A DNA stretch of 64,000 nucleotides from NCBI GenBank assembly GCA_963971405.1, contig OZ020485.1, positions 43,397,469 through 43,461,468 on the forward strand, read 5' to 3'. The notes beneath the pieces were generated by a model that worked only from the letters and a program-made list of their open reading frames with translations, did no database searches and was not told where the DNA came from. The position numbers and the translations under genes were made by a program. Source of the DNA: Psococerastis gibbosa. Taxonomy: Eukaryota; Arthropoda; Insecta; Psocodea; Psocidae. The first letter of the stretch is position 1, and each line of letters begins with the position of its first letter. Below, piece by piece: positions 1,439-53,507 of the stretch.

Positions 1439-1511
1439 ATGCGGGACGCCAAGGACCCCTCGCGAGGAATCGCCATTTGCGTTCTGCATCTTCTCACCAT
1501 TCTTTCTCATG
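1439..1511 (+). CDS. Exon 1 of an Ig-superfamily gene: signal peptide
   Basis: The ATG at 1439 follows GTAAAC, a good insect initiation context. The 24 complete codons encode a short charged N-terminus (MRDAKDPSR) and a hydrophobic core at residues 10-22 (GIAICVLHLLTIL), the layout of a secretory signal peptide. The exon ends after one base of codon 25, at a strong donor G|GTGAGT (GT at 1512-1513). The only exon in the window in a compatible phase that continues a secreted protein is 53401-53507, which begins with the last two bases of a codon. The link is inferred from strand, phase and domain logic. A different downstream partner, or a different upstream signal exon for 53401, cannot be excluded. 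Confidence 0.55.
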
Positions 1512-1523
1512 GTGAGTAAGCAC

Positions 1524-1825
1524 CAGGTCCGGGTTTGGCCTTGTGGGGCCCCTTGGGCCGGAATTGTGTGGGGGCCTTTCCCGGGCAGAAATGTCTTATA
1601 CCCTTACACTAATATTCCACTATCATTTATAGACTCAGGATGCAAAATAGAATGGAGTAAAGCGATTAATAATTAGTGCCACAGCACGTTCCAATTTCCC
1701 GCCAAATATTTCGACTAGTTTATTTATTTGTTTCAGTTTTTTTTTTTAAATATTGCGAGTTTTTCGGTTTATTGTGGGGGCCCTTTTTTGTGGGGACCCT
1801 GTTCCTATAGCCAAACCCGGCACTG
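1524..1825. mobile_element. hAT-type MITE at the exon 1 donor
   Basis: A 302-bp non-coding element flanked by a perfect 8-bp target duplication GTAAGCAC (1516-1523 and 1826-1833). Its ends, CAGGTCCGGGTTTGGCC and the complement of GCCAAACCCGGCACTG, match the ends of the autonomous hAT at 20038-23865. G-rich GGGGCCC subterminal blocks are also shared. It is a deletion derivative or relative of that element and starts only 12 bases inside the intron. Confidence 0.85.
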
Positions 1826-1833
1826 GTAAGCAC

Positions 1834-3000
1834 AGTGGGTAGTTATTTAGCATAGTTTTTTCTTTTTCCTATACCGCGACAATTTCCAGGCTGGCAACTC
1901 TTAATTACCGTACTATCCTAAGCCAATTGCTGGTACGGCCGTATTACCGGCAACACAAACACAGAAGAATAGGCTATCAATCAAAATGCTGTAGTAGGTA
2001 TTGTGTACAAATAAATTCTAAACATGTATGTATGTATTGTAATGTATATTGTATATGTTCTGTACATTTCGGATTTCCAGATTATGTAGGGTTTCTTTGT
2101 TTTTTCTATATTCCACAGTTGATACATTGCGAGTAGCGTACGGTACATGAGAAACTCCATTTATTTTTTCATGGCTATATTAATTTCCAACGTTGACGTT
2201 TTTACATGTACTGCTGTGGTTACATTAAATGTCCTGTCTTACTTATTAATCATGGAATAACAGCCAGATAAAAATATTTTATTTGCAACAATTTAGAATC
2301 ATCGAATTTGAGGTTATAATAAGAGAAGTGACATATAACAATAGAACCCCTACTGATGGTCTCACTTGGCGATATTCCTGGAATAAAATGAAATTAATGT
2401 TTGTTTGTATTTTAAATTTACAATTTTGAAAACACCATGTCAGTAAAATTAATGTTAATAGTATACGTATTACATGAAGAGATTTAAGTTAATTAGATTG
2501 TTAGGAATTTCTCTCACTTTTGTGGACAATGTATATAATGTCGTGCAACCAAATTCAAAGATATCGGAAGCATAGATGTACAGTACCGTTCTATTGTATA
2601 AATCTTTAATAATTTAATTAATCAAATTATTAAGTCAATATACAATAAGAACTGTAAAATGTAAATGACTAGAGGAAAATATTGTATCTCCCATTTACAG
2701 TGGACCATATACTGTATATACCTACTCGCACTTGTAAGCAAATAATGAAATCTTATAAACTGTGGAATGAAATGAAATTTCTCAGGAGACGAATAACTTC
2801 ACCTTTTTCTATATAACTGCAGACAAGAGACTCATAACTGCACCTCAGGATGACAATAAAAGTTTTTTAATAATTTTTTCTGCTTTATTACTTTTCTCTA
2901 TTTAATCAAACACGAAGCCCTAGATTTAACCTTACTATCGTAGCCTACATCTTTCTGCAAACACTATTGTACAGTTGAGAATCAATTTTTTTAAAGTATT
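1834..3000. other. AT-rich intron sequence, nothing recognised
   Basis: No coding frame, terminal repeat or family shared with the rest of the window was seen. Short ORFs here lack domain features. Confidence 0.5.
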
Positions 3001-3004
3001 TTTA

Positions 3005-3060
3005 AGAGGGAATTAATCGCATAAATATTATAATGAATGTATCCAATTAACCTCTTCAGT
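3005..3060 (+). repeat. Repeat family L, 5' fragment
   Basis: Resembles the start of the 30165-30315 copy (GAATGTATCCAATTAACC and CTTCAGTC motifs). It is cut off by a family C repeat immediately downstream; more L sequence reappears at about 3505-3575. Confidence 0.4.
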
Positions 3061-3061
3061 C

Positions 3062-3300
3062 AGCCGGCCGCCATACCAAGTTGAATCCAGCGGACCAGAG
3101 CAGGTTCAAAGCTGCAGATAAATTGGTCGTGTACACAGTGCCGGTAGGGAAACATGGTAGGACTTGTCCTGGTCACCTCCGAACTAATCGTGTGACTTCA
3201 CTGTGTTTCCCAAGTGGTTCGTAATCCACTATAATCAGGAGGTCCACTGGAGTCTTATGGGCCCACACCGTGGCCTGGGACTGTGTAAAACCATACTACT
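3062..3300 (+). repeat. Dispersed repeat family C, copy 1
   Basis: Near-identical to 36800-36990 and related, inverted, to 11516-11790 and 14812-15010. Shared landmarks are GGCCGCCATACCAAGTTG, GGGAAACATGGTAGG and CCAAGTGGTTCG next to AATCCACTATAA. It is non-coding. The GGTTCG block resembles a polymerase III B box, so a SINE origin is possible but not shown. Confidence 0.55.
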
Positions 3301-3351
3301 ACTACTAACCTCTTTAGTTACCCCACTAAATAACTTAATAGTACTTGTGCA

Positions 3352-3508
3352 CTCCCTACATTTTCTGGCCATGCTTCGGTAAGCATGTAAAGCAGGTGGT
3401 CCCGGGCCTTCCTAGTTGGGTGTAAGGGAGGGTTTTATAGCCCTAACTCAGCTAGGCTGGCTTAGTAATAGAACAAAAAGTCCTTATTTATATTTATTTA
3501 TTGTGTTG
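3352..3508 (+). repeat. SINE family F, 5'-truncated copy
   Basis: Carries the body of the tRNA-derived SINE (CTGGCCATGCTTCGG, GTCCCGGGCC, TTATAGCCCTAACTC) and its T-rich TTTATTTATT tail, but lacks the tRNA-like head with the B box. Confidence 0.65.
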
Positions 3509-3764
3509 AGTTATGACACGTCTCCGATCGCATGGAGTGCACGCTACACTCATGCCACCGAAGCCGATCAAAATTATAGATTTACTTTTATGTTGAAAAT
3601 AGGACACTCAACATATTTCAAAATTTCAATTTTAGTTCAAACTTCGGATCCATATTTCCTACTTTGTTTACGAGCAATTTGGTGTACCCCGACTACGCAC
3701 TTTTTGTGCAGAGCCGATTTTCACAGGAAATACCGATCAAAAATAGCCTTTAAATTCGAAGAGA

Positions 3765-4390
3765 CCATTTTTTTTATTTTGGGCTAACTCAATTGGGGGT
3801 GGGGTTTTATTCTCAAAAAACTCGAAAAAACGTCTAAAAAAATGATTTCCCAAAAACGGTTCCAACGATTTCTTTTAAATTCACATATATTGTAGCTGTT
3901 ATTAATGTTGATAAAATGCGGGGGGTCGCTTGCCCCTTCATAGTTTGCTTCTGGGGGTAAAAAAATAAAAGTAACTAAATTTTAATGAAAAATGACAAAA
4001 AAATAATTTTTCTGTGAAACCTTTCTATCGGTGATTTCTACCTTCAGGCATGTTTTAGGTGTTAAATTGAGTAACGAAACGAAACAGGTTACTTTCTCAA
4101 AAAAGTATTTGGTTTCGTGCAAAAAAATGGTTTTTTGAAAAAATGATAAAAAATTCACGCTCAAATGCATTGCGTGCTCTGCCATTATTGCTGTGTGGTA
4201 ATGTGTTGGTCTGACCTATCTAGAATTTACCTCACCTCCAGTGACGTCAGGTGGACACCCCCCCCCCCCCGGGATGCTCGAAATTTAACTATAGGAAAAT
4301 TATTTACCATGAAATTACTCATTTTCTCTAGGTACTACTTGATAAATTGGAAAGCATGTTCGAGTAAACTCGGACCGGTTCTTTTAAATT
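3765..4390 (-). mobile_element. Family E element, truncated
   Basis: Related along its length to the elements at 6346-7224, 9682-10607, 40748-41622 and 52137-52999. It keeps the end with TTGATAAATTGGAAAGCATG and CGAGTAAACTCGGACCGG, a long C tract, and the ATTTTAATGAAAAATGAC block. The opposite end with CAGA repeats and ACTACGTATAAATTGG is missing. It is non-coding; short ORFs inside recur only because the repeat recurs. Confidence 0.7.
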
Positions 4391-4529
4391 TGTCTACAAA
4401 TCGCATTATTGTACTTTAATTTTCTTTTTCACAAGTAAATAATTCTATATTATTGAATTAGTTAAGTTGGGACTCAATCGTCCCACAGCCCTATTTACTG
4501 TTTACATGTACCTAGACAGCTCGTACTTA

Positions 4530-4903
4530 GGCTGGCTTTCCACCGACCGGCTAGGGCTAATTACAAAAACGGTGACGTGGTAGCAGACATTCAAGACTTA
4601 GGTGGCGTTTCCACCGATCTCGCATTGCAGAATGCAAATGACATACAACAATTCGTTATTTTTATAAAAATCAATCAATATGTTGGTGCTCAACATATCC
4701 CATGACGCCATTTCTTAATTTTATTTTAGTTTGTTTGTGATTTGATCAATTTTAACAATGGCATAGAGTAAAACAAACATTTCCGTCAGTGTCATTTGCA
4801 TTCTGCAATGCGAGATCGGTGGAAATGCCACCTAAGTCTTGAATGTCTACTACCACGTCACCGTTTTTGTAATTAGCCCTAGCCGGTCGGTGGATACCCC
4901 ACC
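4530..4903. mobile_element. Palindromic MITE family A, copy 1
   Basis: A 374-bp near-palindrome flanked by TTA (4527-4529, 4904-4906). Outer arms carry TTTCCACCGACCGGCTAGGG, inner arms GGTGGCGTTTCCACCGA and CGCATTGCAGAATGCAAATG. A TTA/TAA target and GC-rich ends starting GG fit non-autonomous PIF/Harbinger elements. No coding capacity. Confidence 0.8.
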
Positions 4904-4906
4904 TTA

Positions 4907-5740: not shown

Positions 5741-5742
5741 AA

Positions 5743-6066: not shown

Positions 6067-6345
6067 TTACTAAGATGAACCCGCAAGCTTAATTTAGTTC
6101 ATCGGCCTAATGTAAGTTTACAAACGAAAAACTAAATTAACACCTGAACCAGCATAGAGTTATTGATACTTGACATATGGACTCTTATCTTTATGTATAA
6201 TGTCTGAGAATGGGACAGAGTAAGATTACATGTTGCAGTGGGTTGAGAACTGGTTTTTGACCATGCCTGGATGGGGTGTGGTTTCTAAAGGCATCAAGCA
6301 AGGCTATAGTGGAGTATAGTATTGTACTAACAGCTATCTTATATT

Positions 6346-7275: not shown

Positions 7276-8550
7276 TAATAATAATAATAATGTATATATT
7301 TGGACAAGCAACAGAGGATAGATACTCAATGTAACAAAATTTCTCCAACCCCTTACTGTCTAAGTCAAACAATCTTATGGAATATGAATATATGTATATA
7401 CAGTATATATATGTAGTCAAAAGCTAAAACCTAAAAACCAACGATATTGCACAGTGTATATATTAAATAATTTCATTTTAAAAATATAAGAGATTCACTG
7501 TTCAAAGGAGAAACGCACATCATATGGGCTCAATTTTAATAATAATTCCCTAACTGAAACTCTGAAGATCTTGACACTAGGCTCGTCCCTCAAATGCCGA
7601 GGAAGACTGTTAAAGAGCGCTATTCCCCGGTACTGCGGGGAAAAGCGAAAGCTCTCAAAATGCACTCTCAACCCCCGCAACACTCTACCGTTCCTTCCAT
7701 CTCTAGTATCAAAAATTGATAGGTCCTTTCTCACGAACATAAGTAGGTTTAACGCATAGAGTGCTGGCAGTGTCAAAATCCCCAGATCCCTAAAGTATGG
7801 CTTGCAATGGGTGCGAGGATGGAGGCGGCACATGGTACGAATGGCTCGTTTCTGTAACACTAAGAGTCGATTTAAAACATTTTGAGGCGAGCCATACCAA
7901 AAAATTATTCCATAGTTGAGATGGGACTCAAAACAGGCATGGTATACTAGCTTAAGAGCCTCTCTGCTGACCTGACTGGCAAGCGTACGGAGAAGATACA
8001 GCCCTGATAACAACTTAGCACTAAGTGCGTCAATATGATCAGTCCAGCTTAGACCACTGTTAATAATTAAGCCCAGAAATTTAGTTTTTGCACTAAGCGC
8101 GAGAACCTGACCATTTACTGACAATGACGACGAAATATCATTTTTTGTGAAGTTCACAAGCACCGTTTTATTAGTATTAAGCACCAATTGGTTAGCGTCA
8201 AACCATTCTTGTGCCTTCAGTAGCGAAACTTCAGTTAACTGACTTAAATTTGCGTTCCTATTACCTGACACTAACAGGCTGGTGTCGTCGGCAAATAAGG
8301 TGCACTGTGTACAGTGGGGGCGCATGGACGCAGGCAAGTCATTTACGAATAAGATAAACAGGATTGGACCGAAAACTGAACCAGCCGGGACGCCCCTTTC
8401 TACTGGTACCCATTCCGACTGAACTGTGTCTCCACTGTCCTGATTCAAACGAACCCTCTGTACCCGACCTTCGAGGTATGAAGATAAAAATTGAAGAGGT
8501 AGTCCACGAAGACCGTAATGACTTAATTTATCAAGGTCTGCTGTCTGCAG
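7276..8550 (-). pseudogene. 5'-truncated non-LTR retrotransposon with RT domain
   Basis: An open frame of about 340 codons (stop at 7495; open upstream to about 8555) encodes the second half of a non-LTR reverse transcriptase. Recognisable parts are HYGLRG followed by LPLQFLSSYL, the GVPAGSVFGPILFILFVNDL block, the catalytic FADDTSLLV box, FLGLIINSGLSW, and the C-terminal LNRLLVLQKRAIR and ALFNSLPRHLR motifs common in jockey- and CR1-like elements. The endonuclease and early RT are missing, as expected from 5' truncation on insertion. Downstream of the stop (7276-7494) is an AT-rich 3' UTR ending in an ATT-type microsatellite tail (about 7277-7292). The frame is unbroken, so insertion was fairly recent. 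The clade cannot be fixed by eye. Confidence 0.85.
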
Positions 8551-8580
8551 CAGACCTCAGACAGAGGCACGGGCATCATG

Positions 8581-16025: not shown

Positions 16026-16659
16026 TGTCCGTGAATGCCTCGCATTGCACAAGCTAAATATAGTTGCGGGTTGTTGTCGCAGGTACCTTACCCTAAATCG
16101 GGTAGGTACACAAGTACTCATCCCCGCATTTTACAGTTAGTGAATTCAGTCTCAATATTGTATCGGCTCCAATAGGTTGTATATTTATTTAATTATATAG
16201 CTATTGTTATTTACATTAATTTATTATAGTTGTGGTTGTAGTGTTTTCTTGTTTGTGTTATTATTCTTTATATTAAACAGTGTTTATTGTGCTCGCCCCT
16301 GCCGAGATTCCTGCGGATACTTTGCAAGCCACGGACTCCGGTAGTAGATAAGTAGCGTAGCCTATTCACTCAAAACACATACACCCAGACACTTTACAGC
16401 ACCACACTATACATTACATTTTATAATAGGTCTACCTACTGTACTACACCTTCACCACCGAGTAAGCAGAGTACGGTAGGCTTATTCTCTTCCTTTCTTA
16501 CCAATTCATAATTATTTTCATACAGTCCACTCTCATTTCATAGGTACCTAAACCTTCAGGAGCGTAATTTGGAGTTCTTAGTTATTAGCTTATTAGGATA
16601 CGCCCCTGTTGTGAGTTAGGTACTTATTTTATTGTACTGAGCTATCGCAGAAAACCACA
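16026..16659 (+). repeat. 5' LTR of the BEL element
   Basis: 634 bp, TG...CA ends. Compared segment by segment with 25143-25776, no difference was found, so insertion was recent. It should contain the element's promoter and polyadenylation signals; no canonical motif stood out. Confidence 0.92.
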
Positions 16660-16660
16660 T

Positions 16661-16678
16661 TGGTCCTTCGAGCCGGAT
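16661..16678 (+). other. Primer binding site, tRNA-Tyr
   Basis: TGGTCCTTCGAGCCGGAT, one base after the LTR, is complementary to the 3' 18 nucleotides, including CCA, of animal tRNA-Tyr. It sets minus-strand DNA synthesis for reverse transcription. Confidence 0.85.
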
Positions 16679-17245
16679 CGGTCCTACGATCTGAATAGTT
16701 CTTTCTTTTGTCTTTTTACACCTTACTTCTAGCCCCGATTGTTTTATGCTATTGTCCAGTTCTGCATTTACATACCTGGCGCAACAATTCGCAACTATCA
16801 GCTCTTAGATAAGGTTGATATATTATTATTTTCGTAGGCATTACGATATAATACAATATTATATTTTATTATAATTTTATATTTAATTATTGGCATTGAG
16901 CCTATTAGAATCTGTAGTAGCCTATGTTATAGAGCATGGTATAACGGTAACCGTTATATTGGTCGTGGGGATATTACTACCCAAGGACTGGTACCTGGAT
17001 CTGACCTTCTCGTCACCCTCTTTCAATAGATACTTTTAGGGGGATTTTTTTGGAATTGGCAGGTTTTAGGGTCTTTATTGTTAAGACACCATTACATGGT
17101 ACCGATACTATACGGTTTCTATTATTGAACTGACATTTGGGTCAATTTATGGTGTCATAGTCATTGTGTTGTGCAAATAGGGGATTGAGTATAGCCTGTC
17201 CCGTTAGGTTCCCTTTTGTGAATTGTGGGTTCATTTATTGCGGAA

Positions 17246-20029
17246 ATGGCACCGACAAGAAGGCGAACCGTTAGAAGTGACCCTGATGCGTCTAATTGTA
17301 GTAGGCTACAAATTTTGCTTCACAAACGGTCAATGATTATTAATGACGTTAAGTCAATTTTAGCATATTTAAAATGCACCACATCTCTCACGCCCGGAGC
17401 TCTAAAGATCAAATCTCAGCGTGCTGAAGGATTGGTCACTCAATTCGAATCTATAGAGTCTGAACTGATGGATATCAATTCCGGAAGTTCCACCTCCAGC
17501 CGCATATCGGTTGAAGCGGAGCGTGAGGAATTTTATAATCTTTGTGATGAAGTGCACATTTTGGCCATTGATGGCATGGATAAGGGAACTGTGTCAAATT
17601 ATTCCAGCCCAGCTTGTGGCTTAGGGCCAAACTTATTAAAGCCAATTGAAATCCCTACTCTTGAAAGCCACAATTTTGACATGTGGTATGCAGTTTTTGA
17701 CAGCTTAGTCAACAGTAGTGCGTCTTGGACACCTACCGTTAAATTCCATTACCTTATAAGCAGCTTAGGGCATGACGCCAAAGCCTTAATTAGTGAGTTC
17801 TTGCCAATATGCGATGCGAATTACGCGTTGGCATTGAATTGTTTAAAATCGCATTTTGAAAATAAAAGGCTTAAGGCATCGACCATGGTCAGCAACATGC
17901 TCAATTGCTCTCCCCTTGCGTCTGGGCGGAGCAGCGCTGATTTAAGCAATTTAATTCAGACTTTTCGGAATTCAATTAGCGCATTAGATAAAATGCAAAT
18001 TAAAGATTTAACGGAATTTGTCTTCTTTCAAGCGCTCTACGCTAAAATTGATGTTCAAACCCGTAGGGCATTTGACCATCAACTTAAAGACATTAAGGCG
18101 TTATGCAACGTACATGACCTAATAAAATTTTTACAGGCAAAGGTACAAGCTTCCGACCTAGATAAGGTTATAGCCAAACCTTTGAAAGCTAGCCTAAGCA
18201 CTTTCAAGCCTAAATCGGCTCTTTTGGTGGACCCTGCGGACTCTGCCAATGCTCGTAAAGCAGTGCGTCCAATCAGCAAGAAATGCCCGGTTTGCAATGG
18301 GTCCCACCCTGCATACCGGTGTCAGCAACTTTTGAAGCTGACTGTTCCCAAACGATGGGAAAAAGCTTTAGAAATAAAATTGTGTGCAAAATGCCTCAAC
18401 AGCACTCAGCATTCGGCCGCTGAATGCCCTGTTGAATTTTTGTGTCGAAATTGCTCTGATGGAGATAATCAGCACAATAGTCTATTGTGCCGCAAAGGCG
18501 GTTCTTCTACTTTGGACCGAAAGCAAAGGCCTACTAACAATAGTACCTCTTTAGGGCACCGCCAGACTCCTACAACTTATGAGGAGCCAGCTAGTGCATT
18601 GGTGGCATCCGGTCCACAGGCTCTATTGGCTACGGCTGTAGTCACTATTCATGGGTTTTCAATGCGTACTGTAATTGACAATGGAAGCCATCTTAGTTTT
18701 ATAACAGAAAAGGCTGCTTCACAACTTGGTTGCAAGCGGTTTTACGACAAAACTCTCATTCGAGGTATTGCCGGAACAACTAAGACCAAAGGAAGGGTTA
18801 TCTTTACCATTGAATCAACTGTTAATCCCCATTTTAAGCAAAAGATTGAGGCTTTGGTTCTTCCCCAAATCTGCGGGAATCTTCCTTCTCGACCCGTCAC
18901 TTCTGATATAAGTGGCCATTTAGGTGATATAGCCTTGGCTGATCCCCTTTTTTATAAACCTGCTAACGTAGACATTCTACTGGGAGCCAGAGTCTACTCC
19001 TCTATTTTAAGCGATTCCAAGCCTCTACTCAGGTTGGGTGGGCTAACGGCGCAGTGGACTCAGTTGGGTTACGTGCTACTGGGAAGTACGACTGCTGACG
19101 AAGCTTCCGTGTCACTTTTAGGTCTAAGTGTAGACCAGGATTTAACTGAGGATGTTGAGCGGTTATGTGAGATTGGAGAAGGTCCTAAGTCCATACCACT
19201 TTCTGCTGATGAACAGCTGGCTGAGGATATTTACTCACAAACTACAGTATGTAGAGCTGACGGCAGAAATGAGGTACGACTACCCTTTAAGCCAAATGCT
19301 GTCCCATTAGTGAAAAATAACTTTTCACCCCTTAAGAGTCTGCTTTCATTAGAAAGTAGGCTATGCAAGGAGCCCGAGAAATTTAAATTGTATCGGAATT
19401 TTTTTGCTGACTATCTTGAAAGCGGTATTCTAGAAAAGGCTAGAACCGTTTCAAAGTATATGTTACCTCATCATTCGGTTATCAAACGGTCCAGTAGTTG
19501 TACTCGTTTGCGGCCCGTTATGAATGCCAGTTGCCTCGACAAGAATGGCAACTCTCTGAATCCTCAATTGCTGACGGGACCAGCATTGCAAACTGATATT
19601 TGCGATGAGTTATTGTCTTTCAAAGAAAGAAGTGTTGGTTTGATACCCGACATTAGAAAAATGTACAATCAGGTTGTGATTGCTCCTGCTGATAGGTGTT
19701 ATCAGCATATTTTGTGGAGGCCTGCACCTGATGGTGGTTCTGAGGAACTTGAGTTCACTCGTGTGCTATTCAGCATGGCACCTAGTGCATTTTTAGCACA
19801 GCGAACTATAAAGCAGTTCATTGCTGACGAGAGCGTTAATTTCCGAAGAGGTACCAACATTTCGCTGACTCAGCTATATGTTGAAGATTTAATTACCAGT
19901 TTAGACGGCAGCGATGACGAAATCCGATTTGCTGTCAACGATTTGCTGCGCAAAGGTGGCTTTGAACTCCAAAAATTTGGAAGTTCACACCACAGCCTTT
20001 TGTTCAATCTACCGCGTGATCAATGTGAA
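17246..20029 (+). pseudogene. BEL gag-protease-RT, 5' part of the interrupted polyprotein
   Basis: The first ATG of the frame (17246, context GAAATGG) follows an in-frame stop at 17219. About 928 codons are open to the hAT insertion; translation then runs about 33 codons into hAT sequence to a stop ending at 20128. Gag region (roughly residues 100-330) has the DUF1759-like FDMWYAVFDSLV stretch. Three Cys-rich knuckles follow at about 345-415 (CPVCNGSHPAYRC, CAKCLNSTQHSAAEC, CRNCSDGDNQHNSLLC). An aspartic protease lies near 475, but the usual D-S/T-G reads DNGS. RT runs from about 690 with RPVMNAS and PDIRKMYNQV. The YVDD catalytic box is YVED near 878, replacing one metal-binding Asp. Both substitutions are likely damaging, so this copy's own enzymes are doubtful although the frame is open. 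Confidence 0.88.
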
Positions 20030-20037
20030 GACACTGA
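20030..20037. repeat. 8-bp target duplication of the hAT element
   Basis: GACACTGA, repeated exactly at 23866-23873. Without the hAT and one copy, the pol frame reads through in register. Confidence 0.9.
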
Positions 20038-20518
20038 CAGTGCCGGGTTTGGCTATGGGGCACTGTGGGCCCGGGCCCCAGGGCCCCCACAAAAATGGGG
20101 CCCCCACAAAACGAAAAAATACAAATAAAAAATTGAAAAAATTAAAAAAAATCAAAACAGATAACTTTTTAAATTTTCGCGGGAAATTCGAACGCATCGT
20201 GGCATTAATGACTCATTTTTGATAAAAATTTAACAAAAAATGAAGTATGTCCACTCCTGCTCTGAAACCACGATTGTTTTGCTTCATTAAATACAAATTG
20301 AAAATTTGAAATCAAATTTCTAAATTGAAACTACTTTTATCAGCACTTTCTGGTTGGTATATTGTTAAGGTAAGTAGCATAAGTTAATTCTTATATTAGA
20401 GGCGGAAGTACCTAATAGTTGTTCTTTATAAGATAAGGTCCTTATTTTTCGTATTCTGCGCCCATTTACCACAATTCACAGAACGCATCAAAACTTTGTA
20501 AGCCTATTAATTTTAATA

Positions 20519-20717
20519 CGAAATGTGCCCAGCCACGTGGTCGCCACAAAATCGAGCACGTTATAAATATAAAATTCATTGGTCTAAAATGTTATATGTC
20601 ATAAAATGTTATATTATAAGACGCATGATTCGGAATTTTGAGATGTTTTATACAAAAGGGGATAAAAAATAAAATGTATTCGATTTTGTGGTGACCACGT
20701 GGCTGCACATTTCATCT
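20519..20717. repeat. Inverted repeat in the hAT 5' region
   Basis: AAATGTGCCCAGCCACGTGG and GCCACAAAATCGA (20521-20556) are mirrored at about 20677-20715 (TCGATTTTGTGG, CCACGTGGCTGCACATTT). It may be a small MITE trapped in the element, or a subterminal structure of it. No target duplication could be fixed. Confidence 0.6.
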
Positions 20718-20823
20718 TAAGTAGGGCAATAGGAACAAGTGGACTAGATAATTAGGCTCTGGCTAGTGAGTTCTGAAAAAACTAATTTATTACAATTTTT
20801 ATTTTTGATTCCGTAGTGAAATA

Positions 20824-23573
20824 ATGGATCGTCACAAGGGAAAACGCGAATATGCAAGCGGCAGTGAAAAGCGGAAAATCGCAGCAGATAAAGAAAACAA
20901 AATTCAAGATGTTTTATCTAAAACGCGCCGTATAACGGATTTTGTAACAAAAATAGAGACGGGTCCATCTACTCCTAGTTCTACTTCTAATTTTGTTGAA
21001 ATGATGAGTGGTGATTCTGATTTTCCTGCATCTTCTCAAGTTATTGCTAGCCCTACCCAAGAGGTAAGAGTTTGACTTTAATTACTTAATTAAGGTGACC
21101 GCAATCAAAAATTACCGACCCCACTCACCCCAGTAATTCTTATGGAATTAAAAATGGGGGACTCCTGTTAATTTACTGTATGAATTAAACCTACCTAAAC
21201 TTGAGTCGGCCATGCCGAAAGGATTGTTTACAAAATTAATTACAACTGTAATTGTTTTACTTGTAGGCAGTAATTGATAACAATGACGAATCCGAAAATA
21301 CTGCTGATGATGGATTTTGCAAAGAAAATGACGTGGGATTGTGGCCAGCAGTTCTTAGTCAACAACACATCGACTATTGGATCAAGAAAGGAAATTTGGA
21401 AACTCAGCATTGTAATGAAGATATTTTGAAAGAAAAAAGCTTGGGACAAGTAGATGCAGTGAAAAGAAGAAAATGCCATGCAAGTTTATTCCTTCGTCAA
21501 ACTCAGGCAGGCAAGTCTATAAGCCGCTCTTGGTTATGTTTTTCACCTAGTACGGGGAAGCTATACTGCTTTTATTGTAAATTGCTCTGCAAATCAGCAA
21601 ATCAGTTTTCAACTGAAGGGTTTGCTGACTGGAAGCATGCGTCTGAGCGTTTGAAAAGACATGAAACTACCGTAACGCATTTGCAAATAGTTTGCCAATT
21701 TAAGCATCTCTCAAACGAGGCAATGCGTATTGATCGTGAGTTGGCCACACAAGTGAAGGAGAGCATTGCTTATTGGCGAAACGTTCTAAACAGATTGATT
21801 TCCGTCATAATATTTCTTTCTGGACGAGGACTTGCCTTTCGAGGGGACAACGAAATTTTGGGATCAACCAAAAATGGCAATTATTTGGGAGTCCTTGAGC
21901 TAATTGCACAATATGATCCGTTTTTAGTAGGCCACTTAGAGAAGCATGGAAATCGTGGCAGTGGTAGTGGCGGCGTTAACTACCTATCTGCCCACATTTG
22001 CGAAGAATTAATTGCGCTGATGTCCACCAAAGTTAGCGATGAAATAATTAAACGCTTAAAAGCCTGCAAATATTATTCGGTTTCGGTAGATTCAACAACT
22101 GACGAAGGCCATATAGATCAAATGACTGTGATTGTCAGGTATCTAGAAGAAAGCACACCAAAGGAAAGATTTCTTAGTTTTATGCCAAACCAAGGCCATA
22201 AAGCTAAAGAATTATTTGATGGCCTCAACAAAGTTTTAAAAAAGTTCGGCCTGGATTTGAAAGATATTCGTGGGCAGTCGTATGACAATGCTTCCGCTAT
22301 GAGTGGAGAATATAGTGGTCTACGCACTTTGGTGCTAAATGAGAATCCTTTGGCTTTATGGGTTCCATGTTTCAATCATTCCCTCAACTTAGTGGGCACA
22401 AAAGCGATGGACTCCTGCTCCCAATCGAAATTATTTTTTAGCTTTCTTGAGCAAATTTATGTATTTTTTACAAGTTCCACAGCTCGGTTCAACGTCCTTT
22501 CAAATGTTCTAAAAAGTGCTGCGAAGAAGTATGGCCACAACATACCAGTGCCCAAAAGAATCAGTTTAACCCGGTGGTCCTCAAGAGCGGAAGCTACTAA
22601 TAGCCTAGTTTTGGGCTATAACGAAATACGAGAAGTCCTTAAAGATCTCTCCGAAGAAGATGTCCAAGCAAGTGGACTCTATTTGCAAATTACCACGTTG
22701 GAGATAGCAATTTACGCTGTTCTTTGGAACGATATACTGGCAAGGGTGAATGCAGTAAACATCAATCTCCAGAATCCAAGAATCGACATTAATACTTCGA
22801 TCAGTGTGATGGAGTCCCTTAAGATCTTCATTGGGGAATTTAGGGATTCTTTCCAAGAATATGAGAAAAAGGGTGTTGAATTGTGTGGGCACAATTCTTA
22901 TAAATCGGAAACTTTGCGGAAGCGGATCCGAAATGTGAGGCTAAATCCTTTGGATTATGGGAAAACTGAGGAAGCTGAATTCAGTCATAGCGAGAAATTC
23001 CGAATCGAAAGTTTCATTCCCATAATTGACCAGTTTATGCAATCATTGGATCGGAGAATTTCAGCATATGAAGACATAAATAGGAAATTTGGATTTTTAC
23101 AATATTTAGAAAAAATAAGCCCTGATGATTTGAAAACTAGGGCAGAGAACCTGGTGAGTTGTTACACAGGTGACTTGGACGGTAACTTGTACTTCGAGCT
23201 AGTACAGTTTCGTGAGTTTGTGAAATTATTTGTGATAGATGATGCACAAAAAAACAATATAATCGAAGAAAAACGTATCAGTTTTGAACGGTTCATGTAC
23301 AATTTGATTTTAGAAAGAGGAGTAGCTGATAGCTTTCCCAATGTAGAAGTACTTTTGAAGATGTACTTAGTTATAATGAGTGGCAACATAAGCAGCGAGC
23401 GATCTTTTTCCGTACTAAAACACATAAAAAATCCTCGTCGCACCAGTTCTTCTGAAGCTCGGCTTAGCCATCTTTCAATGCTGAATATAAATCACGACAT
23501 AGTGGCAGCGTTAAATTATGACGATATAATTGACAGTTTTGCTGTAATAAAGAGTCGAAGAGTGCATCTTTAA
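20824..23573 (+). CDS. hAT transposase (ZMYM-like / DUF4371 type)
   Basis: Two exons: 20824-21063 (80 codons) and 21267-23573, joined by a 203-bp phase-0 intron with donor GAG|GTAAGA and acceptor CTTGTAG|G, giving 848 residues. The ATG at 20824 follows GAAATA and is the first in the frame. The N-terminus is Lys/Glu-rich and probably carries nuclear localisation. A TTF-like zinc finger lies near residues 165-215 (WLCFSPSTGKLYCFYC, then LKRHETTVTH). The DDE-type catalytic Asp candidates are in SVDSTTDEG (about 355) and GQSYDNASAMSG (about 419). The third acid is in the C-terminal hAT dimerisation segment SGNISSERSFSVLKHIKN (about 791). These are the expected blocks of hAT transposases, which cut and paste DNA with 8-bp duplications. 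All blocks are present and the frame is unbroken, so activity is plausible. Splicing is inferred from frame and consensus sites only. Confidence 0.88.
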
Positions 23574-23865
23574 ATAAATTAAAATTTTGTGTTTATAATT
23601 AGGTACCTATTAATTTATTCCTTTTAAAAATACACCGCAGTGTCTACAGCTTTAGTTGAGTAGCCCTTAGGCTTGTATTGTACTATTGACTTGACTTTAT
23701 ATTACTAAGAATCGCTTTTCTTTTTTATAATGATTTTGCAACCTGTGTCACCATTTTATAATTTATTGTGGGATATTCGTCTAAGGGGATTAGAAATTTC
23801 TCCCCGAGAAAGGGCCCCCACATAATTCGGGCCCACGGGCCCCCACAAGCCCAAACCCGGCACTG

Positions 23866-24903
23866 GACACTGATCTACATGGCAAAAAGGCTGTAATTAA
23901 GGTATTCGGTCTATTTTGGACTTCAGCGAAAGATATTTTTATGTATCGAGTCACTGAGTTTAATTATGTATATACCAAGCGCGGAGTCCTAAGCTTTATT
24001 GCATGTCGTTATGACATTATGGGACTACTTGCCACTTTTACTGGAAAAACCAGACACTTTCTCTGCAAATTATGGGAAATTGGCATTGATTGGGATGCAG
24101 TTTTCGACGAAAACTTGCGGAAAGAATGGCAAATTCTTATGGATGGTCTTCCATTTTTACAGGAATTAGGCCTACGTATTCCACGTCTAATAGACTGTTT
24201 TGGTTGCCCAAAACTTGAGCTATATTGCTTTTCAGACAGTTCGTCTACTGGCTATGGCGTCGCCATTTATATTTGTTGTGTTTATGAGGGTCACGCTACT
24301 ATGACCCTGATGAGGGCAAAAGGTAGAACCATGCCCGCAAAATTCAAATCGCGCTTGACAGTCTCGAAAACTGAGCTACAGGCAGCTGATTTGCTCGTTA
24401 ATATATACAGATGTATGAATTTTCTTAACGAATTACCGATGCAGCGAACCTATTTTTGCACAGATAGCACTATTGTGTTGTCGTGGTTGCGCTTAGGTGT
24501 AACTAAGCTGAAATTATTTTTGGCCAATTGTATTCCAATTATTTTGAGTAAAGCTAAAATTGAAGATTGGCGTTTCATTGGCTCTCAATTTAACGGTGCT
24601 GATCCAGCTTCCCGAGGTCTAGGCCCAGAACAGCCGCTGAACTATGTGCAACGGTGGCCTGATCCTCCCCTTTTGTTGCAAGTACCTAGCGTATGGCCCA
24701 AGACACCTCCGTTTTGTTATGATATACCAAATTTAAAAGCGGAAAAGACTATGACATTGTTGTCTTCACCGCAAAATGATTTCGACAAACGTTTTGTCGT
24801 CCGGTTTAGCTTTCCGATGAGACTACATCGTGTATTTTCCCGGATTTTACAACTGCATTTGGGCCCTGTAAACAAATTTTTGCCCCTGCCATTTCAAAAG
24901 TAG
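23866..24903 (+). pseudogene. BEL pol, 3' part: end of RT, RNase H
   Basis: Continues the interrupted pol frame directly after the hAT target duplication and runs to a TAG at 24901-24903. An Asp-Ser block CFSDSSSTGYG, KTELQAA and CTDSTIVLSWL give the D-E-D pattern of the BEL/Pao RNase H region (in the Peptidase_A17-like segment), followed by FNGADPASRG. The frame stops about 35 residues after a KAEKTMTLLSS stretch. The zinc-binding and DDE integrase domains that normally follow, several hundred residues, are absent. This part has no start codon of its own in context, so with the hAT present it is not translatable as part of pol. Confidence 0.85.
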
Positions 24904-25142
24904 GGTGCCTTAATTTTATTAGTATTAAAATTTTGTATTTTAATTTTAGCTTTAGTAGTGCATATCGTAACATTACCTACATTAATACTTCGCCAAATTG
25001 TTTTAATTTTAGTTTGCATAGTGCATTTCATTTCATTCTTTTAAGCTTTAATATGCTTAAGATTGCATATAGTATATATGTATATTTTTATATATTTCTT
25101 TATTTGTTTACCTTTTGCAAGTGCCTTGCAAGGCTGGCGGTA
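24904..25142 (+). other. Integrase-less 3' tail of the BEL element
   Basis: Only 239 AT-rich bases lie between the pol stop and the 3' LTR. No integrase sequence remains. A purine-rich plus-strand primer next to the LTR is weak (AAGGCTGGCGG just upstream). Confidence 0.75.
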
Positions 25143-25776
25143 TGTCCGTGAATGCCTCGCATTGCACAAGCTAAATATAGTTGCGGGTTGTTGTCGCAGG
25201 TACCTTACCCTAAATCGGGTAGGTACACAAGTACTCATCCCCGCATTTTACAGTTAGTGAATTCAGTCTCAATATTGTATCGGCTCCAATAGGTTGTATA
25301 TTTATTTAATTATATAGCTATTGTTATTTACATTAATTTATTATAGTTGTGGTTGTAGTGTTTTCTTGTTTGTGTTATTATTCTTTATATTAAACAGTGT
25401 TTATTGTGCTCGCCCCTGCCGAGATTCCTGCGGATACTTTGCAAGCCACGGACTCCGGTAGTAGATAAGTAGCGTAGCCTATTCACTCAAAACACATACA
25501 CCCAGACACTTTACAGCACCACACTATACATTACATTTTATAATAGGTCTACCTACTGTACTACACCTTCACCACCGAGTAAGCAGAGTACGGTAGGCTT
25601 ATTCTCTTCCTTTCTTACCAATTCATAATTATTTTCATACAGTCCACTCTCATTTCATAGGTACCTAAACCTTCAGGAGCGTAATTTGGAGTTCTTAGTT
25701 ATTAGCTTATTAGGATACGCCCCTGTTGTGAGTTAGGTACTTATTTTATTGTACTGAGCTATCGCAGAAAACCACA
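25143..25776 (+). repeat. 3' LTR of the BEL element
   Basis: 634 bp, apparently identical to 16026-16659, followed by the CATAG target duplication at 25777-25781. Confidence 0.92.
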
Positions 25777-34884: not shown

Positions 34885-36115
34885 ATGGCGACCTGGGTAA
34901 ACATTGAAAACGCTCCTTCCTTCAAATATCTACAACTAACATTTAATTGTATAACTACAAATTACTTCTCACTGAACCCAAATTGTAATATTAAAATAAA
35001 AAAAAGTGTTTTTAGTTGTGTATTTCATGAGAGCTTCAAAACGCCAACAGGCATCGGTAATATGAAAATGACGTCACAGTCCAATCGTCGTCATGTTGGT
35101 AGTTGTCCACTGGCCATCCAAATGACGTCACACTCCAATCCCACATGAACCGCTTTTTAACTATCAAACTTAAACTGAAAGGATTTTTTAAATAATATAT
35201 TTCCTTCTACTGAATATAACGTTGAAAAATTAAAAATGAATCTCCTAATGCATTAAAATAGTTTTCAAAAATTATCAGGTAGCCTATTGTATTTATGGTT
35301 ATTGTAGGTAGCAATTAAAAAATAAATATAGGCTACCAATGTTGAAAATGATGACATGGTGACCTGGTAAACATTGAGAACACTTCATTCCTTCAAATAT
35401 CTACAGCTTACTATGCTATAAAATACAAATTACTACTCACTGAACCCAAATAGTAATATTTAGAAAAATGTTTTTTTTTAGTTGTGTATTTTATGAGAGC
35501 TCCAAAACGCGAACAGACATCGGTAAGATGAAAATGACGTCTCAGTCCAATCGTCGTCATGTAGGTAGTTGTCCACTGGCCATCACAAATGACGTCACAC
35601 TCCAATCCCAAATGAACCGCTTTACAACAACTATCAAACTTAAACTGAAAGGATTTTTTAATTAATATATTTCCTTCTACTAAATATTACGTTGAAAAAT
35701 TAAAAATGAATCTCCTAATGCATTAAAATAGTTTTCAAAAATTGTCAGGTAGCCTATTATATTTATGGGTATTGTAGGTACCAATTAAAAAATAAATATA
35801 CCAAAATTGAAAATGATGACATTGCGACCTGGTAAACCATAGTGAGATTCTCCAAAGTGACTTCGTGGAACTTCATTATACTTAAAATTGTAGAAAGAAT
35901 GAGACGCAATGACATCATGTCTAGTGATGGTATTTTACCGAAACCGGTCAATGTTAATATATTTTAATGTAGATCAGCTGCGTCTCATTCTTTCTACAAA
36001 TATAAGACCTGGTAAGCATTTAAAACACTTCATTCCTTCAAATATCTACAGCTTACTATGGTATAAATACAAATTACTACGCACTGAACCTAATATTAAA
36101 GAAACTTGAAAATAA
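34885..36115. repeat. Tandem repeat with a ~470-bp unit, about 2.3 copies
   Basis: Unit starts, marked by GACCTGG and TAAACATTGA, lie at about 34889, 35361 and 35826. Units share ATTCCTTCAAATATCTACA, CAGTCCAATCGTCGTCATGT and CTCCTAATGCATTAAAATAG. The third unit is interrupted by 35838-36005 and then truncated. Confidence 0.75.
35838..36005. mobile_element. 168-bp hairpin insertion in the tandem repeat
   Basis: Flanked by GACCTGGTAAAC and GACCTGGTAAGC (11 of 12 bases equal). Contains inverted arms TGTAGAAAGAATGAGACGCA (about 35889-35908) and TGCGTCTCATTCTTTCTACA (about 35979-35998). Mechanism class unclear. Confidence 0.6.
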
Positions 36116-45764: not shown

Positions 45765-46990
45765 AAGACAAACTACGTCCAGCACAATAAAATTTGAAAC
45801 TCTCATTTCAATAATGAAAAGTCGAAAATCAAGTGGTTGGGTCCGTGATGAGGCAATAAAACAGGGAGCCAAGGGTTCCATGCGGTAACTCTCCACGTTG
45901 GATTGATTATTTATTAAAATGATGAAATACCACGAAGTCACGAGTAATTTAATTTTTTTCTACAACAAACTACGTCCAGCACCGTCCATAAATAATAATA
46001 AAATTTGAAACTCTCATTTTAATAATGAAAAGTCGAAAATGAAGTGATTATAGGAACGTGATGAGGCAATAAAATAGGGAGCTAAGGGTTCCATGCGGTA
46101 ACTCTCCACGTTGGATTGTTGGATTGATTATTTATTAAAATGATGAAATACCACGAAGTCACGAGTAATTTAATTTTTTTCTACAACAAACTACGTCCAG
46201 CACCGTCCATAAGTAATAATAAAATTTGAAACTCTCATTTTAATACTGTAAAATCGAAAATGAAGTGGTTATAGGAACGTGATGAGGCAATAAAATAGGG
46301 AGCTAAGGGTTCCATGCGGTAACTCTCCACGTTGGATTAGTTATTTATTAAAATTAAAGACCAAGAAGTAACGAGTAATTTAATTTTTTATACAACAAAC
46401 TAAGTCCAGCACCATCTATAAATAATAATAACATTTGAAACTCTCATTTTAATAATGAAAAATCGAAAATGAAGTGGTTAGGAACGTGATGAGGCAATAA
46501 AATAAGAAGTTAAGGGTTCCATTCGGTAACTCTCTCTCCACGTTGGATTACTTATTTATTAAAATGAAATACCATGAAGTCACGAGTAGTTTAATTTTTT
46601 CTACAACAAACTACGTCCAGCACCGCCTATTATGACGGCTATTCCACATATCAATATTCCGTCATTTTGCATTAATAATAAGATAAGTATATGGTAATAT
46701 TATAACTTAATGAATAATAGATAAGTTAAGTATCTACATAATAGTCACCTTAAAACAAAATCTCATCAATTATTGATGCACAAACGACGGAATATAGACA
46801 AGTGGAATAGCCACCTAACAAAAATAAAATTTGAAAATAAATAATGAGAAATCGAAAATGAAGTGGTTGGGAACGTCATGAGGCAATAAAATATGGAGCT
46901 AAGAGTTCCATGCGGTAACTCTCCGCGTTGGATTAATTATTTATTTAAATGAAATACCACGAAGTCACGAGTTGTTTAAATTTTTCTATC
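45765..46990. repeat. Tandem array of repeat G, about five ~210-bp monomers
   Basis: The CACGTTGGATT landmark lies at about 45894, 46107, 46328, 46539 and 46924, giving spacings of 213, 221, 211 and 385. Removing the 182-bp MITE at 46634-46815 brings the last to about 203. Monomers share CCACGAAGTCACGAGTAATT, CAACAAACTACGTCCAGCAC, TTTGAAACTCTCATTTTAAT and CGTGATGAGGCAATAAAATA. Confidence 0.85.
46634..46815. mobile_element. Palindromic MITE family B, copy 1
   Basis: GACGGCTATTCCACATATCA at the left mirrors CAAGTGGAATAGCCACC at the right. Flanked by TAT and TAA. Same family as 63672-63849. Inserted into the tandem array. Confidence 0.75.
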
Positions 46991-48970: not shown

Positions 48971-48979
48971 GCAGTGCCT

Positions 48980-49600: not shown

Positions 49601-49603
49601 CAT

Positions 49604-49829
49604 TGTCAGGACATGTAGATTAGTGGTAAGGACTCTGACTTTCACTCGAAAGGTTGTTGGTTCGAGTCCCACACTTCCTACATTTTCTGGCCATACTTCG
49701 GAGGGCATGTAAAGCAAGTGGTCCCGGGTCTTCCTAGTTGAGTGTAAGAGAGGGCTTTATAGCCCTAACTCCGCTAGGTTGGCTTAGTAATAGAAACAAT
49801 GAAAAGTCATTATTTATTTATTTATTTAC
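49604..49829 (+). repeat. SINE family F, best-preserved copy
   Basis: Full element: head GTCAGGACATGTAGATTAGTG, B box GGTTCGAGTCC at about 49658-49668, body TTCTGGCCATACTTCGGAGG and CTTTATAGCCCTAACTCCGC, tail TTATTTATTTATTTATTT. A tRNA-derived head with an internal polymerase III promoter and a body without coding capacity defines a SINE. It presumably uses a partner LINE's machinery. Confidence 0.85.
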
Positions 49830-50227
49830 ACTTATTTCCATATGGATCTCATTCATTTGCCCGGGGGGCTAGAGTGCGGTACTCTATAATGGTTTATTAT
49901 ATTAAATTATTAATTAAAATTATATTTTGCAGTGCCACTGCTCAAAGATCACGCGATAAGCGGAAGCTTAAGCGTGATAATTTCAACCGTATTCAAAAAT
50001 ATATATAGCTTATATTATACATTTATGTAGCCTTAGTAGTTTTGTGATTTTTTCAAAAATTAATCAAAATTATATACATTACGGTATGATAAACAAGATG
50101 GAAACTGTAAAATTATTTATAAACAACAGAAATGTAAAGGACTCTATTTATAAGAAAGAACCGCACCCAATGAGTTAGTCAAAAAGCCACGACTCGCGAG
50201 TCCCACATTGCCGACTCCTGTCCTAAG

Positions 50228-50460
50228 CCTAATTTTACTTTATTCAACAACTCCTGTCGTGAACTATTATTGAAAACGACAAGACTGTGGAACCTACTAC
50301 CTACTGAGATTGGGGCGGCTGGATCACACAATCAGTTTAAAAATAAAATAAAATCATATATTTTCGATAACACCTAGGCCTAGACCCTGTTACCTGGCCT
50401 CGTAGCAGTACAAACAATGGACCCCCTCCTATATCCCCTCCTTTTTTACCTTCTTTCCCC
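50228..50460 (+). pseudogene. Non-LTR retrotransposon 3' fragment
   Basis: The plus-strand frame reads RELLLKTTRLWNLLPTEIG, then SHNQFKNKIKSYIF and a stop near 50376. This resembles the last ~40 residues of CR1/jockey-like polymerases (R..LWN.LP....), with a short 3' UTR after it. Confidence 0.6.
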
Positions 50461-50555
50461 CTTTATATATTCCATATACGATAATTTAAGTTATATTTTA
50501 CTATGTATACTGTTATTAAGTTATGGTTAACATGAAAAAACGACTTTATAGTGTT

Positions 50556-50782
50556 ACTGTCAAGACATGTAGCGGTACGGACTCCGACTTTCACCCGAAA
50601 GGTTGTTGGTTCGAGTCCCACACTGGCTACATTTTCTGGCCATGCTTCGGAGGGCATTTAAAGCAGGCGGTCCCGGCCTACCTAGTTGAGTGTAAGAGAG
50701 GGCTTTATAGCCCTAACTCCGCTAGGTTGACTTAGTAATAGAAACTATAAAAAGTCCTTATTTATTTATTTATGTATTTATT
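50556..50782 (+). repeat. SINE family F, copy
   Basis: Complete head (GGTTCGAGTCCC at about 50608-50619), body and TTATTTATTTATTTATG tail. Confidence 0.8.
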
Positions 50783-50789
50783 GTTCGCC

Positions 50790-52135
50790 ATTTGTATTGC
50801 AATAAAGTCGTTTATTCATTCATTCAAAAAAAAAAAACTGTATCTGTCCCGCATGCCATGTGAGTTATAAATGAACCGGATATCTTGACATTTATTTTCC
50901 AATCCAGTTTTATACGTCGTTAATCACTAATAGTATCTTCCTCTTTCGGCCCCCCTTACAATGATCCTAAAAAAAAAAAAAAAAAAAAACGCTGCAGATT
51001 TATCATTCGCATTGAATAAAAGGTTGACAGCCGAGATTTCATGAATTTCCGCCATATTTGATACGTTTTTAATATTCACGTATTCACAACTGGCTTTCTC
51101 ATCTTTCAGTTACCTACAATCTTGCCTTTTTTGTTCTTCCTGACATGAGACGCTATGGAAAAAGCGATCTCAAATTTTTAAGTACTATTTTTTTTCAGCA
51201 AAACTCCACAGTTATTGAGGTAGATATGTCGCTCCTTGATTTACCAACTGTTTTAACTGCAAAAAAAATATTTTTTTTATTACATCCAAAAATTTCATTC
51301 CCCCCCCCCCTTTTTTGCGTTCAATCGCTGTATCTGCAAGCCTGTAACAAAATTGAAAATTTCTTGGCTGCAGTATAGAAGATACATAAATTAAAACCAC
51401 CGGAAAAAATTTTAAACGCTCTCCTGAAAAGTTAGCATTTCCCAGTTAGAACAGTTGGCTAATCAAGAAGTGATGTATTGTCTTTGGGTCTTAGCTAAGC
51501 CTGGTGACAAACATGTCTTATAATTCTGTTTTGTCTTTAGGGCGGATTCTTACATGCTCCCTATAAAGTTTTATATAGAAAAGCCTACTTTATGTGCGTA
51601 TTAGCCGATTTAATATTATTATTCTCCCCTCCAATTGTCTGTTAATGCGCTTTTGTTCCAACTGATTAATCAAAAACGTTGTTATTAGATATGAAGTTCA
51701 CCTTTTCACTCTATTGATTTTATAATCAGCTTTATTATTAGAGCATGACTGGCACCTGCGATTATGTGAAAATTTATAAAAGTTCTCGGTGAAGGCTACT
51801 ATAAATAATGACTGTATCTCACCTCAAAACTTTAATTCATATTTATAATGTGATAATATATTACCTATGGTAGGATTTATTCCCTAATAGTTATGGTGCA
51901 ATCACGACAGGTTAGTCGTTAACAAATCTCTTAATGAATTATAGACTCTACTGGGTATAATGGATAATACGTATATAGAAGCCTGATGATTAAAAATGAC
52001 GCTTATTATAGAAATTAAGCTTTCGCAATGGTGAGGTTTTGTGATTCTATTACGAAAATACATTTTAATATAAACATTGCTCTCGAATTAATTACTGAAT
52101 GAGATCTGTTGTTCGTCAAACCAACATTAAATAGT
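50790..52135. other. Unassigned sequence with homopolymer tracts
   Basis: Poly-A at about 50967-50989 and a C run near 51301-51310. No gene or shared repeat recognised. Confidence 0.45.
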
Positions 52136-52136
52136 A

Positions 52137-52999
52137 TAAGAACCGGTTCGAGTTTACTCGAACTTGCTTTCCAATTTGTCAATGAGTAGATAGAGAAAAT
52201 GAGTAATTTCATGGTAAATAATTTTCCTATGGTTACATTTTGGATATCTCGGGGGGTGGGGGGGGGGGGGTTGTCCACCTGACGTCACTGGAGATGAGGT
52301 AAATTCTAGGTAGGTCAGACCAACACATTACCATACAGTAATAATGGCAGGGCACGCAATGCATTTGACCGTGAATTTTTATCATTTTTTCAAAAAACCT
52401 TTTTTCCACACAAAACTAAATAGTTTTTTGCGAAAGCAACTTGACCCGTATCGTTACTGAATTTAACACCCAAAACATACCTGAAGGTGAAAATCATCGA
52501 TCGAAAGGTTTCGCAGAAAAATTATTTTTTAGTCATTTTTCATTAAAATTAAGTTTTCTCTATTTTTTTACCCCCAGAAGCAAACTATCAAGGGGCAAGT
52601 GACCCCCGCATTTTATTGACATTAATTACAGCTAGAATATATGTGAATTTAAAAGAAATCGTTGGAGCCGTTTTGGAGAAATAATTTTTGTAGACTTTTT
52701 TTTGGAGTTTTTGGAGTATAAAGCCCCCCCCCCCAAATTAAGTTAGTCCAGAATAAAAATAAAATGTCTCGAGGTATGATTTTTGTGAACCTACGTGCTA
52801 AATTTCATTAAAATCGACCGAGTAGTTTGACCGGAATTCGATGAACAGACAGACAGACAGACAGACAGAGCGACAGACAGACATTTCGTAAAAACCACTT
52901 TTTTGGGTTCCTGGGACCACAAAACGTGAAATCTCGGATTCGAAAATTTCTACCATCACAAAGCTTTCCTTATACTACGGATAAATTGGAAAACAATAA
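52137..52999 (+). mobile_element. Family E element, full-length
   Basis: Begins AACCGGTTCGAGTTTACTCG, ends ACTACGGATAAATTGGAAAA. G tract near 52251-52271, GACA repeats at about 52845-52880. Not coding. Confidence 0.75.
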
Positions 53000-53400
53000 C
53001 TGTATCATCGGTGTGAAAGTCACTATAAGGAATACGACCGTGATTCATGTGATCATAACCGATACTTTTCAAGCGACGGATCTGAGACAGGCTTTGGTCT
53101 TAGACCTGGCCTTAGACTAGACTGGTGTCGGTGGAGCAATGGCAAAGTGCCCTATGCATTTAACATGGTGAAATTGACTCAAGCATTTCAACAGGTGTTT
53201 AAGGGGCTACTCTGGCATGTGTCCAAATGCCAACCACTACCCAGTCTTCCACCCCCCCCCCCTCCTCCTAACCCCTAACCCAGCGTAGCCCATGTAACAT
53301 ATTATAACTAATTAATGTAATTCATCTCTGCCAGTGCTTTATCTTCTTGTATAATTTTTTAGTTTCATACCAAGCTTCAAATATTTTATATTTGTTTCAG
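53000..53400. other. 3' end of the inferred first intron
   Basis: No repeat recognised apart from a C tract near 53252-53264. The final bases form a pyrimidine-leaning acceptor ending TTTGTTTCAG, directly before the Ig exon. Confidence 0.6.
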
Positions 53401-53507
53401 TTTTGACGGATGGGCCACGATTTCTGGAACCCATTCCTAACGTAACTGTTGCATTAGGAAGAGATGCTTCACTTCCATGTGTTGTGGATAACCTCGGCAC
53501 TTATAAG
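53401..53507 (+). CDS. Exon encoding the first half of an Ig domain (DIP/lachesin-like)
   Basis: Flanked by acceptor TTTGTTTCAG and donor AAG|GTTAGA. The reading frame starts with the last two bases of a split codon (phase 1 entry) and leaves in phase 0, giving 35 full codons. The peptide contains GPRFLEPIPNVTVALGRDAS and then LPCVVDNLGTYK: the A/A' strands, a B-strand Cys at position 26 and an NVT glycosylation sequon. The P-NVTV--GR-A---C-V--LG-YK pattern is characteristic of the first Ig domain of insect dpr-interacting proteins and lachesin-like proteins, cell-surface recognition molecules of neurons. The family splits this domain before the VAW C-strand, consistent with the donor position. 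The next exon is not visible up to 64000. The member of the family cannot be named from 35 residues. Confidence 0.82.

Follow-up and report, generated by a model that had tools for sequence, protein, structure and literature searches.

A DIP-family immunoglobulin gene with a probable 52-kb, mobile-element-rich first intron in Psococerastis gibbosa

The window analysed here is a stretch of 64,000 nucleotides from Psococerastis gibbosa (contig OZ020485.1, hereafter C2; C2:43397469-43461468, in a genome of 409 Mb). It very likely holds the 5' portion of an insect gene for a DIP (Dpr-interacting protein), a neuronal surface adhesion protein with three immunoglobulin (Ig) domains. A 107-bp exon inside the window encodes the first half of the first domain (Ig1), and exons found downstream of the window continue the same protein. 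A 73-bp stretch located 52 kb before the 107-bp exon is the probable signal-peptide exon. The window was extended by 170 kb on its downstream side and by 30 kb on its upstream side, and "window-extended" numbering runs on past position 64000. The parts of the gene, all on the plus strand, are as follows.

1226-1438: candidate promoter and 5' untranslated region, proposed from its GC content; GC-rich and CpG-rich, with an initiator-like TCAGT at 1354-1358
1439-1511: probable exon 1, MRDAKDPSRGIAICVLHLLTILSH plus one base, signal-peptide-like, with a phase-1 donor GTGAGT; putative link to exon 2
1512-53400: intron 1, 51,889 bp, if exon 1 partners exon 2; at least 59% repeats and mobile elements
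53401-53507: exon 2, which encodes the first half of Ig1, reading (G)TT followed by LTDGPRFLEPIPNVTVALGRDASLPCVVDNLGTYK; DIP-eta in the PDB at E 5.5e-6; borders common to 12 of 13 places in the genome
53508-64000: first 10.5 kb of intron 2, whose whole length is 17.9 kb, the next exon being at window-extended 71415
71415-71600 (window-extended): exon 3, VAWIHIDRQMILTIHRFVISRVPRFGVSHDNQKTWLLHVYGVQQEDRGYYMCQVNTEPMMSQ, with the motifs VAW...YMCQ
72615-72798 (window-extended): exon 4, GT-AG, in phase
79099-79227 (window-extended): exon 5, GT-AG, in phase
96272-96556 (window-extended): exon 6, GT-AG, in phase
from 105266 (window-extended): likely exon 7, EIPMPSQPSAVKEV...; its donor, after 105334, is of the GC type

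Exon 2 and the Downstream Exons

Exon 2 is 107 nt long. It follows the acceptor tttgtttcag, opens with TT TTG ACG, and closes with TAT AAG before gttaga. Two bases precede the first whole codon, and the exon is thus entered in phase 1; it is left in phase 0. A phmmer search of its 35 residues against 177,635 PDB sequences returned 37 matches at E ≤10. The top five (E from 5.5e-6 to 4.0e-5) carry the names DIP-eta, DIP-theta, and DIP-alpha, and the sixth (4.5e-5) is CG32791, which we take to be DIP-alpha. In these six, the match falls at the N-terminal end of Ig1. The seventh is titin (E 0.0018), and DIP-gamma is found at 0.0062. When the best E-value is spread across the ~3,660 six-frame stretches of 35 residues, it rises to about 0.02 by our own arithmetic, in which splice sites and downstream exons are uncounted. 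Pfam assigns no family to the 35 residues alone, which are too short; the identity is settled by the PDB search together with the downstream exons. Judged by these matches, exon 2 is certainly a real exon encoding the first half of a DIP-family Ig1, beyond what chance would give.

The exon layout is shared across the genome. The exon 2 query finds 13 places, 12 of them at E <0.003. A scripted check of the borders, for which the acceptor of each place had been chosen beforehand by the author, showed that 12 of the 13 have an AG acceptor followed by two bases and then the first codon, that their frame is open, and that a phase-0 GT donor comes right after YK; the thirteenth (E 0.89) has no donor after the YK position. 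These exons measure 95 to 137 nt. Phase-1 entry is thus the rule of the DIP family in this genome. The closest paralogue exon lies 124 kb upstream of exon 1 (C2:43275066-43275161, minus strand), with 81% identity over 32 residues; its borders equal those of exon 2 and its strand is opposite.

Downstream of the window, a six-frame scan found only one stretch carrying the VAW and Y.C motifs in order. This is exon 3, which begins 7.4 kb beyond the window end. From exon 2 to exon 6, the exons follow one another with AG acceptors, GT donors, and agreeing phases. Introns 2 to 6, with the likely exon 7 counted, measure 17.9, 1.0, 6.3, 17.0, and 8.7 kb. If the donor of exon 6 is read through, both a stop codon and an AATAAA signal follow within 45 bases (window-extended 96557-96601). 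A short alternative 3' end just after exon 6 is conceivable.

Once joined, the exons give a protein of 321 residues, in which Ig_3 and I-set of Pfam each match three stretches, i.e., three Ig domains. It was compared with the PDB, of which the best 60 of 68 matches are considered here. DIP-theta (2.6e-102), DIP-alpha (1.9e-97), and DIP-eta (2.5e-96) align over the three domains end to end. Shorter DIP chains follow, with CG32791 at 9.5e-63, gamma at 3.8e-56, and single-Ig1 chains at 2.7e-33 and 2.4e-32. The next family after the DIPs is represented by neurotrimin (1.1e-33), and Dpr2 is found at 1.4e-16. By this measure, the joined protein is closest to the DIPs among the Ig proteins compared, which are those of the PDB and do not include lachesin among the 60.

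The preliminary description of this DNA, made from the letters alone, had placed two exons at 1439-1511 and 53401-53507, 51,889 bp apart. It had read the second as a half-Ig exon of a DIP-like gene, and had foreseen a VAW...Y.C exon downstream of 64000. Both stretches are present with the borders claimed, the PDB search matches the 35 residues to the Ig1 of Drosophila DIPs, and the foreseen exon lies at window-extended 71415-71600.

The First Exon and its Link to Exon 2

Exon 1 begins with an ATG at 1439, spans 73 nt, and ends with CATG before GTGAGT (1511/1512), in phase 1. Its hydrophobic core is of about 12 residues, one histidine among them; it is signal-like, a candidate for the N-terminal signal sequence of the DIP. 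If joined to exon 2, the junction codon is G+TT, coding for Val, and the protein reads ...ILSH-V-LTDGPRFLEP. We infer, with good confidence, that exon 1 is spliced to exon 2, for which it is the best candidate by strand and phase and by its promoter-like, GC-rich setting.

The GC content is 0.566 in 1226-1511, as compared with 0.379 in the whole window. Of 1275 window segments, each 286 bp long, three reach the GC content of 1226-1511, and all three overlap it. A region of 144 kb with exon 1 in it was searched; positions 43276662-43317468 of C2, where the first exon of the paralogue may also lie, are outside the sequence analysed. Exon 1 resides inside one of the two GC-rich islands of this region. 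Twelve looser candidates were found there (seven on the plus strand, listed up to exon 2, and five on the minus strand), and GC-rich surroundings are observed for exon 1 only (0.57, versus 0.34-0.42 for the other eleven). TCAGT is an arthropod initiator motif; the copy at 1354-1358 carries little weight, a given 5-mer occurring by chance about once per four such stretches (own arithmetic).

Candidates were ranked with a simple score for the donor and a score for hydrophobicity. Neither the 53.4 kb of plus strand nor the 64 kb of minus strand examined holds another stretch that reaches both scores of exon 1, and 20 Markov sequences of 53.4 kb contained two equals. With fixed cut-offs (donor 5, hydrophobicity 2.2), exon 1 is the sole plus-strand match in 264 kb. 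Since phase-1 entry is the family rule, the matching phase alone says little in favour of exon 1. Furthermore, DIPs have little to no sequence conservation outside their Ig domains (PMC6374074), hence homology is unable to decide on exon 1. The best alignments of the joined protein begin at query residue 28, 30, or 24, so that the residues of exon 1 add almost nothing to the match.

Several observations weigh against the gene as reconstructed here. At these fixed cut-offs, the 264 kb contain two minus-strand matches, one of which beats exon 1 on both scores, and about 0.2 such stretches are therefore expected per 53.4 kb. On the plus strand, the stretch 50772-50859 (MYLLFAICIAIKSFIHSFKKKKLYLSRMP), located 2.5 kb before exon 2, also has a phase-1 donor; its hydrophobicity is higher than that of exon 1 (2.87 vs. 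2.70), and its donor is weaker (4.72 vs. 5.94). A tblastn search of the 144 kb for relatives of exon 1 returned, besides exon 1 itself, a best match at E 0.10 with an internal stop, and none for the paralogue. The link between exons 1 and 2 is drawn from sequence. At the other end of the gene, searches for a terminal exon with an anchor signal (a C-terminal hydrophobic patch or a glycosylphosphatidylinositol (GPI) signal) yielded weak candidates only.

The observations on exon 1 lend a small but appreciable probability to an alternative in which exon 2 does belong to a DIP gene, but not together with 1439-1511. The latter would then be open by chance, or would begin a different transcript or a non-coding one. 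The real signal exon would lie elsewhere, for instance at 50772-50859 or further upstream. One of the two strands of the 264 kb does carry a better-scoring stretch by chance, four more weak plus-strand candidates exist upstream of exon 1, and phase agreement, being family-wide, excludes little. Against this stand the GC-rich surroundings, which are peculiar to exon 1 (50772-50859 has an ordinary GC content of 0.42), and the coding content of the window. Its open reading frames (ORFs) of at least 62 residues number 197, of which 82 were given to Pfam. Two matches were obtained, both to mobile-element domains. In a further scan of exon 2 and seven ORFs, four sequences matched mobile-element families above the cut-off, one had a HYLS1_C match below its cut-off (E 0.048), and three had none. 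Among the ORFs that were scanned, the window thus showed no other coding domain of a non-mobile kind. Of the earlier proposal that the two exons belong to one gene, the part concerning exon 2, in a DIP-family gene on the plus strand, stands, and the splicing of 1439-1511 to it is supported as a prediction.

Comparison with Known DIPs and Possible Function

The Drosophila DIPs of known structure, DIP-theta (6efz), DIP-alpha (6efy), DIP-eta (6eg0), and DIP-gamma (6nrr), have the three Ig domains in common with the present protein. None of them stands out as its nearest relative; it may be close to DIP-delta. They differ from the gene described here in that its intron 1 far exceeds the coding sequence and is rich in mobile elements. 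Over 103 Ig1 positions, 54, 56, and 55 residues are identical in eta, alpha, and theta, respectively (52-54%), near the mean Ig1 identity of the DIP family, 53 ± 10% (PMC6374074). The hydrophobic core of the Ig1 interface is also kept. Its residues alpha Ile83 / eta Ile87, eta Ile92, and eta Met132, named in PMC6374074, are Ile, Ile, and Met here. DIP-epsilon and -zeta are described there with an alanine in place of Met132. Since the methionine is retained, the gene is probably neither DIP-epsilon nor DIP-zeta, as judged from this residue.

The IgLONs (neurotrimin and others), presented as vertebrate relatives of the Dpr-DIP family in PMC10863630, likewise possess three Ig domains. They differ by their match to the joined protein, at E 1.1e-33 or weaker versus 2.6e-102 for DIP-theta. 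It is very improbable that the gene is a DIP relative (lachesin, Dpr, or IgLON-like) or a decayed copy instead of a working DIP: IgLONs and Dprs do match the joined protein, but far behind the three-domain DIP chains among the best 60 matches (in which lachesin does not figure), the single-Ig1 DIP chains score like neurotrimin because they are short, and the protein has its three Ig domains, open and in-phase known exons, and the Ig1 core residues.

By analogy with Drosophila, a working of the gene may be proposed. A promoter at about 1226-1438 would start the transcript, of which the first coding exon (1439-1511) would supply the signal peptide. After removal of the 51.9-kb intron 1 by splicing, Ig1 would start with the half encoded by exon 2; the remainder of Ig1, together with Ig2 and Ig3, is encoded by at least four exons beyond the window. 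The product would be secreted and membrane-anchored; according to PMC10863630, a GPI anchor is present in the majority of the Dprs and DIPs that have been tested. Its Ig1 may pair with Dpr partners or with itself, thereby aiding neurons in choosing their partners.

The locus is an ordinary gene, one more DIP, rightly spotted under difficult conditions. It adds a DIP gene, with a paralogue exon close by, to a family already known throughout arthropods. Exons of 73 and 107 bp, 52 kb apart, were recognisable in raw sequence, and they illustrate why annotation easily misses or shortens such genes in repeat-rich insect genomes.

Intron 1 and its Mobile Elements

The following mobile elements were delineated in intron 1.

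1524-1825, no strand assigned: hAT-type miniature inverted-repeat transposable element (MITE), 302 bp, recognised by its ends and its 8-bp target site duplication GTAAGCAC (1516-1523 and 1826-1833)
7495-8556, minus strand: reverse transcriptase ORF of a retroelement (Pfam RVT_1, 7.5e-12)
16026-25776, plus strand: Bel/Pao long terminal repeat (LTR) element interrupted by a hAT, with the duplication CATAG, LTRs at 16026-16659 and 25143-25776, and Peptidase_A17 (4.8e-27)
20038-23865, plus strand: hAT nested in the Bel/Pao element, with a DUF4371 transposase ORF (21267-23573) and the duplication GACACTGA

Of intron 1, 41% is similar to other sequence within the 351 kb compared, out of 409 Mb, which makes this share a lower bound. 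The coverage reaches at least 59% once the LTR element, the reverse transcriptase ORF, and the MITE are included. The intron had been described as made almost entirely of transposons; repeats and mobile elements do form the larger part of it, and the words "almost entirely" go beyond this lower bound, with which they are compatible. Tandem arrays are also found, with 3.9 units of 221 bp at 45786-46625 and 2.0 units of 470 bp at 34885-35837.

The LTRs of the Bel/Pao element are identical (634/634 bases), hence its insertion is recent. Duplications of 5 bp, such as CATAG, are typical of Bel/Pao elements. The hAT is later still, since it is nested inside and has its own duplication. Together they represent about 9.75 kb of recent growth of intron 1.

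The MITE, which resembles the hAT at 20038-23865 at either end (79% and 72%), starts 12 bp downstream of the exon 1 donor, and its duplication is exact on both sides. Bases +5 and +6 of the donor, the end of GTGAGT, belong to the left copy. The right copy creates a second possible GT donor, CTG/GTAAGC, at 1826, 314 bp further on. It is tempting, though rather doubtful, to suppose that the MITE struck the 5' splice site itself, that the duplication saved the donor by preserving +5 and +6, and that a second donor was thereby born. If so, this hit, the recent Bel/Pao-hAT nest, and the opposite paralogue would together depict live intron growth and the birth of an alternative donor in a DIP pair.

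The Paralogue and Neighbouring Features

The paralogue is upstream and on the opposite strand, and the two genes would therefore lie head to head. The other GC-rich island of the 144 kb, the only one besides that of exon 1, lies between the two paralogues (C2:43334519-43334969). It contains a minus-strand donor of which 10 bases, CATGGTGAGT, are the same as at the exon 1 donor. Beyond CATGGTGAGT, no further convincing similarity to exon 1 was found in this island, and inspection of its six frames by eye showed no start codon leading in frame into a signal peptide. The island is possibly the first exon of the paralogue.

Inside intron 2, a tRNA-Thr (AGT) gene or tRNA-like copy is located at 62949-63022 on the minus strand. 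Further downstream, at window-extended 168000-218000, inspection by eye revealed several similar copies of putative integrin-alpha-like repeats on the plus strand, together with presumably chitinase-like frames on the minus strand.

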